Shown here: positions 15,101-18,100 of the stretch, one piece after another
Layout: every line of letters begins with the position of its first letter
How positions within the stretch are numbered: the stretch's first letter is position 1
Assembly (NCBI GenBank): GCA_029706075.1
Contig: JAINUG010000213.1
Location: forward strand, 974,837 to 1,038,836
Origin: Aldrovandia affinis
Taxonomy: Eukaryota; Chordata; Actinopteri; Notacanthiformes; Halosauridae
Reading direction: 5' to 3'
DNA length: 64,000 nt
Notes under the pieces: model-generated
The model's input: the letters and a program-made list of their open reading frames with translations, nothing else
Databases searched by the model: none
Told to the model about the DNA's origin: nothing
Made by a program: the position numbers and the translations under genes

Positions 15101-18100
15101 CCTGTCCAAATCTCCATGCCTAATCTGGGTTTGGCAGCCAGGGCATATTAATTACACGAGTAAATGAAGTGTCAGAGTAAATGAAGTGTCAGTGGCCGTC
15201 GAGCGCTGGGGTTTGGCAGCCGTTACATTACTGATTACAGGGGTAAGTGGAGCGTTTGGGGGGGCTGTTACCCTGGCTGCGCTCCGGGGTCTTGGTCAGC
15301 TGCTCCAGCTCCCAGCCCAGGTGCAGAGACTCGTCCATGCTCTGCTTCTGAGCCACCTCCAGCGTCATGTTCTCCTCCAGCAGCTCCTCGATCCGCCTCC
15401 GGTCCCCGTCCCGGTCCTGAGGCGCGGACGCAGACGCGCGCAGACAGATTCATCAAGAACAGACCGTCGACAACTCCACAGAGAGGGATTCTATGGACCC
15501 CTTATTACACCTAAAAATGTACGTTCGCGAGTAAAGTGGTGCAAAGAACGCATGCAGTGGTCTACTGAGCAGTGGGGAAAAAAATGTATATGGCCAGATG
15601 AGTCAGATGAGTATGGTGTTTTCCACCACCATCAACAAGACATCAAATTATGGAATTTCTTGTCGAAGAATGGTGTTGCATCCCTCCAATAGAGTTACAT
15701 TACATTACAGGCATTTAGCAGACGCTCTTATCCAGAGCGACTTACAGTTTTTTACATTTCTTTACAATCCATTTATACAGCTGGATATTAACTGAAGCAA
15801 TCCAGGTTAAGTACCTTGCTCAAGGGTACAACGGCAGTGTCCCACCTGGGGATTGAACCTGCAACCTTAACGTTACAAGCCCAGTTCCCTAACCATTATA
15901 CCATACTGCCTGCCAGTATGGGTTCCAATAGAGTTCCAGACACTTGTAGAATCTACGCCAAGGTGCACTGAAGCTGCTCTGGAGGCTCGAGGTGGCACAG
16001 CGCCCTATTAGGACTCTTATGTTGGTGTTTCCTCTGTCCTCTCTGAGGCCACGCCCCGACGCCCCGGCTGGTGCCCGGCTGGTGCCCCGGCTGGTGTGCG
16101 GCGCTCCCTTTCGGACTCACCATCTCCATGTCGTGGATCTTGGCCTTGAGCTGCAGGCTCTCCTTCTCCAGCTCGTGCAGTTTGTCTGAGCGCGCCCGGG
16201 ACCCCTCCAGCTGGTCCTCCAGCATGCTCTTAGTCTCCAGCAGCACCTGGTTATCCTCCTTCAGCTCCTGCACACACACATAGAACATGGTTACCTTCTG
16301 TCAGCGCACGCACACACACACACACACACACACACACACACACACACACACACACACGCATAACCTGGTTATCCTCCTTCAGCTCCTGCACACACACATA
16401 GAACATGGTTACCTTCCATCAGCGCACACACACACGCACACACGCACACACACACACAGAACTTTGTTATCCTCCTTCAGCTCCTGCACACACACAAACA
16501 CACACACTCTGTATCAAAGACAAGAGCCCTACCCGGCACCCCTCCACAGCAAACACAGAGCTCTGCAGATATTCCAGTAATATTGTGTGAATGCTCTCCC
16601 GGTGTTATGATGTTAGAGCAACACTCTGAGCAGAGCATGTTACAGTAAGCTAGCTGGCTTGAAGTAAAACAAAACAAAACAAAACAAAACAAAACAAATC
16701 GGCAAAGGCTTGTTATTATAAAATACAAAAATGCTGGCAGGTGCTGTATTCCTGTAGTTGATATATACATATATATGTGAATACATACATATATGCTCAA
16801 ATAACAGGATCAACCTTCAATTTGAGTTCATATTTGGGCAAAAACGCCCCCAACTCAATATCCAATGAAAGAGTTTTACGAATGGTCTGCGAAAAGTGTT
16901 TAAATAACCACACCATTATGTAATGACTGTAATGATCTTACAGCTAAGATATGCACTGCAGAGAAAATTAAAATTACACGGTAATGAACTAGCTCTGGCC
17001 CACAACCCATTAGTAGAAAGGCCTGAGCCAGTACCTCCATCCTGGCCTTTTAGAACTCTATGGCAGTCCCGTTTCTGAGCTCTACATCCAGTTACAATTG
17101 TGTCATTTAGCGGACGCTCTTATCTAGAGTGACTTACAACAAGTGCATTCCACTAAGTGGGGTGAGACAGCATATCGCATAAATAGTCAGTACAAGTTCT
17201 TTACAAAAATGGCTCCTAGGAGCACACACAGAGCTACTAGGGATACTAGGGGCTACTAGGTTACTACTTATTGAGGAGGATGCTAGGGGGAGGGATGGGA
17301 GTGGACCTCCACCTTGGCCTTGTAAAAGTCTATGGTAGTGCCTTCTCCCATACCTCCACCCCAGCCTTATAGATCTCTATGGTAGGCCCGTTTCCCATGC
17401 CTCTATGGTACAACTCTATGGTAGTCCGGTCTCTCATACCTCCACCCTGGCCTTGTAGAACTCTATGGTAGTACGGTCTCACACACCTCCACTCTGGCCT
17501 TGTAGAACTCTATGGTAGTCTGGTCTCTCATACCTCCACTCTGGCCTTGTAGAACTCTATGGTAGTACGGTCTCACATACCTCCACTCTGGCCTTGTAGA
17601 ACTCTATGTCATGCATCCGCTCCTTGTAGCGGCCCACTTCGCTCTCTAGCTTGTCCACGCGGAAGGCCTTCTCCCGCAGGGCGTCCAGCTCGTCACGGTA
17701 CGCTCTGGCCGAGCGGGCGTCTGACATTAGCTGCATGTTCTACCACACAAAGATACACACATTACTTCAACGCTGTGCTCCCATACCAACGTTTGGGAGC
17801 ACAGCGTAAAATTTACCAGTGTAAAATTAGAATATATTTAACTACAATATGCCACAAAAATTGTTCAAAACATACTATTTGAACAATATACTTTCAGCGA
17901 TGAAGTCTAAATGAGAAAAACGGTTTGCTGAATTTATAATGGCCTTTTCTTGGGCGCAAACTTTGCATAGGTCTTAGAAGGAGAAGGCACAAGGGAATTC
18001 CCCTTTCCTAAGATCAAATTCCTCAATTCATGGGAAAAGCAAGGGGCCATAAATAGCATCGTTTCCCCTCCGGCACGCTGTATGTATTAAAGTATCTTTA

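Follow-up and report, generated by a model that had tools for sequence, protein, structure and literature searches.

The window, i.e., the whole 64,000-nucleotide stretch of Aldrovandia affinis DNA that was analyzed, carries on its minus strand a gene of the CCDC88/HOOK coiled-coil type, which we take to be a CCDC88 gene. A model of 17 exons was inferred for this gene from reading frames and splice signals, and further exons probably lie within 18.4-29 kb. Exon w7 (17581..17739; 159 nt, both ends in phase 0) matched the Pfam family HOOK (PF05622) at 30.6 bits, which is under the cut-off of 35, and a weak match to HOOK_N was found in an exon further upstream. The next exon is w8 (16121..16267). 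In the genome (1.22 Gb searched), w7 has paralogous exons in C458 (71% identity) and C2011 (39% identity), while w8 has a paralogous exon that is 69% identical. Both paralogues contain exons matching w7 and w8, with an intron in between as in the window. Thus the boundary of w7 is well supported, as two paralogues have an intron at the same place. Four genome matches to MHC class II beta above the Pfam cut-off identify the host as a jawed vertebrate, the only group from which this family is known.

Other features were seen in the window: i) an 11-bp minisatellite (864-1449) occupies nearly the entire intron between two exons of the same gene; ii) a 140-nt exon (29139-29278) changes frame midway (16 and then 20 residues, in different frames), perhaps through a 1-nt indel that arose from assembly error or damage; iii) on the plus strand, a 50-bp repeat (47856-48010) includes the donor-like motif GACG/GTGAGC (the slash marks the exon-intron boundary, here and below) without a visible exon.

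Copies at both ends of the w7-w8 intron

On the minus strand, exon w7 ends in GTGGAG/GTATGT, with the boundary at 17581/17580. TRF delineated a 47-bp array of 6.6 copies at 17305-17608, the repeat unit of which consists of 28 exonic and 19 intronic nucleotides (GT plus 17 nt). The TRF array and an in-register alignment bore out the original prediction that the last 28 bases of w7, its donor and 19 intron bases had been duplicated in 47-bp steps. U0 (17608-17562) is the end of w7 itself. It is followed by i) the young copies U1-U3 (17421..17561), which at 44/47, 46/47 and 44/47 identity to U0 are the several near-perfect copies that had been claimed, with donors at 17533 (GTATGA), 17486 (GTGTGT) and 17439 (GTATGA); ii) a shortened copy, U4 (about 17382..17420), in which the donor GT is changed to GC at 17400; iii) the older copies U5 and U6 (17300..17381), with donors at 17353 (GTATGG) and 17306 (GTCCAC, weak); and iv) the most distant copy, U7 (17029..17062; donor at 17034, GTACTG). 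Between U6 and U7 lies a dispersed, MITE/SINE-like repeat of ~155 bp (17089..17243), found at at least 39 other places in the genome when 40 of 1,204 candidates were scored, with alignments covering about the same segment. The copies listed in the original prediction were found at its coordinates except the last, which differed by a single base (the exonic part of U7 ends at 17035, not 17034), and the list had missed U4. That most copies keep a GT donor held true, as six do so besides the native one.

U0+U1 and U2+U3 are 91/94 identical, and the latest event in the array was probably the duplication of a 94-bp dimer. Judged from the sequence, the structure of the array fits growth by 47-bp and then by 94-bp steps, and in this one assembly such a dimer duplication would be compatible with instability of array length.

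The original prediction required the exon end and its copies to resemble each other beyond chance. Against its own intron the w7 donor boundary scored 91, while the maximum in 500 dinucleotide shuffles was 31 (0/500 reached the score). The 15 other donors of the window gene scored 15-29 against the w7-w8 intron, and no appreciable exon-containing copies were found at these 15 donors; one of them (6564) rose above its shuffles through an intronic CA repeat only. When the 47-bp region was searched against the genome, matches among the best candidates scored were at the window locus only.

Duplication has affected the opposite end of this intron as well. Exon w8 starts with CAG/GAGCTGAAGGAGGATAACCAGGTGCTG at 16267. 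The start of w8 and its acceptor are the source of two minus-strand copies: the first, TGTTCTATGTGTGTGTGCAG/GAGCTGAAGGAGGATAACCAGGT (16362..16405; acceptor 16385), lies 118 nt from the native boundary and equals it exactly from -20 to +23, while the second, TGTGCAG/GAGCTGAAGGAGGATAAC (16460..16505; acceptor 16483), is more diverged. The copies thus stand at steps of 118 and 98 nt, and the steps bear TG repeats. The w8 acceptor boundary scored 86, whereas its dinucleotide shuffles did not exceed 34 (0/500 reached the score), and the 15 other acceptors of the gene scored 15-27 against the w7-w8 intron. Among 16 donors and 16 acceptors, clear exon-containing copies were found at only two boundaries, both of them of the w7-w8 intron.

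Boundary minisatellites of this sort, at 5' or 3' boundaries, were named "mirages" in the amphioxus genes for Adh3, globin (BflGb6 and BflGb9), TnC and PGBD5 (PMC3087553, PMC3902484).

Strength and coding outcome of the copied sites

Donor strength was scored with a PWM and by pairing with the U1 5' end. The native 5' splice site GAG/GTATGT (17575..17583) was the strongest of the repeat family (PWM 8.9; U1 duplex -7.1 kcal/mol), while the six other GT copies, which the original prediction had marked for splice-site scoring, ranged from -0.8 to 8.7 (the latter for U2) and from -4.2 to -6.5 kcal/mol. As the best U1 match among the copies, the native donor should dominate. Besides the donor copies, the w7-w8 intron contains five further donor-like sites with scores of at least 6 (17137, 16913, 16532, 16412 and 16294), and the one at 16532 pairs with U1 at -10.5, better than the native donor. 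In a local folding model the native donor was at the 5th percentile of accessibility and the copies at the 2nd-46th. The native donor was thus less accessible than most copies, and the idea that structure hides the decoy donors was not supported.

Extension of w7 by 47, 94 or 141 nt reads V-C-E-T-V-L-P-stop in the original frame, so the TAG that had been foreseen is indeed reached. Use of either earlier acceptor (16385 or 16483) also leads to a premature stop. When each of seven GT donors was combined with each of three acceptors (21 pairings), the native-native pair alone was stop-free; nine of the 21 pairing rows had a coordinate off by 1-3 bases, with the outcome unchanged in the three pairings that were recomputed, and in the rest of the later-donor pairings the shared stop precedes the junction. 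From these scores and frames we infer use of the native donor.

A second donor array (13106..14450, minus strand; TRF array 13106-14434) is found in the same gene, three introns past the w7-w8 intron. Its native donor is AAG/GTGAGG (11.1; boundary 14451/14450), at the codon where the paralogous exon has its end too. The array holds 38 CAG/GTGAGG sites (11.3), which all outscore the native donor within 1.6 kb downstream, and one slightly weaker CAG/GTGAGA within 0.5 of it. In 1,554 nt there are 40 sites, native included, that score at least the native value minus 0.5, while six control stretches of equal length held 2, 0, 1, 0, 0 and 0. The first decoy would add 39 nt with an in-frame stop. When the boundary was tested from -40 to +20 the score was 26, within its shuffles; from -3 to +40 it was 57, which 0/500 shuffles reached. 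What the array has in common with the native boundary is thus mostly intronic, with little or no exon sequence in the repeat unit, and it is better called a donor array than a complete mirage. No stronger decoy case was seen in the window.

Paralogues and the rest of the genome

In C458, the equivalent intron (524 nt) contains, at a distance of 225 nt downstream, a single copy of the exon end and donor of that gene itself; it is 37/42 identical, and 0/500 shuffles reached its score. No copy was found at the acceptor of the same intron, and the same intron of C2011 showed neither a donor nor an acceptor copy (scores of 17 and 12, taken without shuffles). The copied donor in C458 scored 4.0 and the native one 2.7; an extension to the copy, by 225 nt, would stay in frame without a stop and consists largely of CA repeat that encodes His-Thr. 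Over 10 kb of the C458 gene, in which some boundaries are approximate, exon-containing copies were found at 0/10 donors and 0/9 acceptors testable, while several boundaries had intron-only repeats above their shuffles. The match of the C458 copy to its own exon end points to independent or homogenized copies, and a mirage ancestral to the paralogues was rejected on these grounds. The resemblance of the donor context of U6 (GTCCACTC) to the C458 donor (GTCCGCTC) had been considered as a mark of the original donor; this was dropped, since U7 lies further out.

Exon boundaries were also surveyed across the genome. From 150 EGF_CA matches, 90 donors were tested (30 from search loci and 60 fetched). 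A long boundary-spanning mirage was found at 1/90 EGF-exon donors, which were placed by the best PWM score near the end of the Pfam match, so that some may be misplaced. This one (L025, a fibrillin-like exon; 1593-2433) has six further copies of CCTGCAT(A/C)G/GTAA, four of which have donors above the native one (up to 9.5 vs 5.4). In L039, its fibrillin paralogue, the exon copy is absent and only a TG repeat is present. Four EGF donors passed the test, and three of them (L026, L059 and L063) are whole-exon repeats, in which the exon middles match too; these were left out of the mirage count. In the exon-middle control, 9/90 came up to the threshold, and we read these, as a whole set rather than traced case by case, as neighboring homologous exons. 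At L054 (110-190), three GTACAG/GTRAGA copies at 33- and 27-nt steps share six exon nucleotides (by eye), and the extensions are in frame and open.

For LDL-receptor class A domains, no mirage was read among 24 candidate donors (30 loci). Donor matches of at least 36 occurred at 4/30 loci: L097 and L126 matched in the intron only, L118 in the exon only, and L115 across the donor, which we read, untraced, as a neighboring homologous domain. Likewise no mirage was read among 60 acceptors (30 EGF and 30 LDL-receptor class A). Ten acceptor matches of at least 36 were found in these 60 loci; six were intronic only, while four (L006, L012, L015 and L026) cross the exon start and were read as neighboring or repeated homologous exons.

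Intron probes had tandem copies at 15/90 EGF donors. That intronic copies are common (15/90) and long boundary-spanning ones rare (1/90) is expected if arrays sometimes overlap boundaries. Repeats of period at least 10 covered 12% of the first 50 nt after the 90 EGF donors, 13-15% at 50-200 nt and 7-15% beyond; donors as general seeds of minisatellites were thus rejected, with a mild rise near donors at most. On the other hand, copies occur at 3/6 boundaries of the w7-w8 intron position (window donor, window acceptor and C458 donor), compared with 1/90, 0/24 and 0/60 in the surveys and none at the 15 other donors and 15 other acceptors of the window gene. This clustering exceeds what casual overlap predicts. 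Therefore, mirages in this genome are recurrent but rare edges of repeat-rich sequence, and the clustering at the w7-w8 position goes beyond that alone.

Origin and persistence of the arrays

The amphioxus units measure 10-72 bp for Adh3 and about 150-160 bp for the globins, many copies carry AG/GT signals, and splicing is apparently undisturbed, according to the globin and PGBD5 papers (PMC3087553, PMC3902484). The w7-w8 arrays resemble them as tandem minisatellite copies that span an exon-intron boundary and carry splice signals. They differ in their jawed-vertebrate host, in affecting both ends of one intron and in the separate copy that a paralogue carries at this donor; moreover, regular splicing is reported for amphioxus, whereas the A. 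affinis array is known from sequence alone. In a partial collection of full-text literature on mirages and boundary minisatellites, fish included, no vertebrate mirage was found. The tandem unit described here unites the exon end, the adjoining intron and a splice signal, and the copies stem from the boundary of the very gene that holds them rather than from any dispersed element. The w7-w8 arrays are a further example of the known mirage kind, in an unusual double-ended form. The original prediction did not include this assignment, the copies on the acceptor side, the separate copy in the paralogue, the array after 14451 or the recurrence in the genome.

The repeat unit of human IFI6 (6-16) is short. 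Two of its downstream units are reported to serve as donors (PMC4526556). Both there and at w7, tandem copies of the 5' splice site right after the exon make several candidate donors; however, the unit at w7 is 47 bp long with 28 exon nucleotides, and donor use is reported for IFI6 while the sites here are candidates. The array after 14451 is a closer parallel to IFI6 than the w7 array. Intron gain or alternative human introns reportedly arose from tandem arrays in the cases of Rogers (1989) and Zhuo (2007). Tandem duplication makes extra splice sites in those cases as well, but here the copies sit within an existing intron, without a new one.

We consider it probable that the arrays arose by near-neutral tandem duplication across the boundaries at both ends of one CCDC88-like intron, and that they are tolerated since the outermost splice pair would restore the normal mRNA. 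A minisatellite would be born by tandem duplication over an exon-intron boundary, in a genome rich in intronic tandem repeats, and would persist since its cost is presumably small. The outermost donor (17580) and the outermost acceptor (16267) together would yield the old mRNA and protein exactly, which is why such duplications can persist, while all other tested pairings would yield a premature stop and be removed by mRNA surveillance. The native donor would dominate, with minor leakage to 17533-17439, and the copies would mainly be weak, wasteful competitors rather than regulated sites. Several lines of evidence count in favor: i) shuffle-tested copies at both ends; ii) scores that are strongest for the native site; iii) a stop-free outcome for the native pairing only; iv) a similar rate of differences in the exonic (5/28) and intronic (4/19) positions of the older copy U5 (counted by eye), which gives no sign of constraint; v) tandem copies that are common in the introns of this genome but rarely span a boundary at length; and vi) amphioxus mirages reported not to disturb splicing (PMC3087553, PMC3902484). 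On the other hand, both the clustering at 3/6 boundaries and the 5th-percentile accessibility of the native donor count against this reading. So does background from experiments with duplicated donors, which often found the intron-proximal donor preferred. The reported use of downstream donors in IFI6 (PMC4526556) weighs on the same side. Moreover, decoys outscore the native donor after 14451 and at L025, and 16532 pairs better with U1, so that strength cannot be the only rule.

It is unlikely that the copies are instead functional decoys, in which regulated use of a downstream donor would add a stop-bearing extension and nonsense-mediated decay would tune the amount of protein (a poison extension). 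Within 227 nt there are five donors strong enough for use (the native one among them), U2 all but equals the native donor (8.7 vs 8.9), the same TAG is reached by all extensions, and IFI6 is a reported case of two downstream units acting as donors (PMC4526556); the C458 intron adds a copied donor above its native one with an extension that is open and in frame. However, the w7 array is absent from both paralogues, and the copy in C458 comes from that gene's own exon. Among the older copies U4-U7, GT is kept in 3/4, which is about the chance expectation at their divergence (both judged by eye, in one species). No sign of selection on the decoys was seen within this one species.

The clustering could also mean that some introns have boundaries especially prone to duplication (hot spots) and that this CCDC88 position was hit three times, with copies perhaps linked to splicing or transcription, or with redundant or competing sites tuning the gene; we offer this as speculation and hold it to be rather unlikely.

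That the copies supply the material from which new cassette exons arise, i.e., a nascent exon or intron, appears very unlikely, even though this is the model proposed for the amphioxus globins (PMC3087553). The perfect and near-perfect acceptor copies are followed by donor-like sites (6.9): acceptors 16483 and 16385 with AAG/GTAACC at 16412 and 16294 would delimit pseudo-exons of 71 and 91 nt. However, these are mostly TG repeat, and each of them, as well as both together, leads to a premature stop in frame.

Assemblies are known to be error-prone at tandem arrays. Nevertheless, even with one amphioxus mirage that seemed misassembled in a draft genome (PMC3087553), an artefact in which misassembly added the copies is scarcely credible, given the graded differences among copies, the shortened copy, the dispersed repeat inside the array and the comparable arrays or copies at L025 and in C458.

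Choice among near-identical neighboring donors is usually studied with engineered duplicates. Here one transcript offers two natural cases, a double-ended array of somewhat weaker copies and 38 decoys with higher scores than the native donor, and the double-ended array together with the decoy-rich intron is well suited as a natural test of how splice sites are chosen. Moreover, these results suggest that mirages, mainly known from amphioxus, recur in the genome of a jawed vertebrate.
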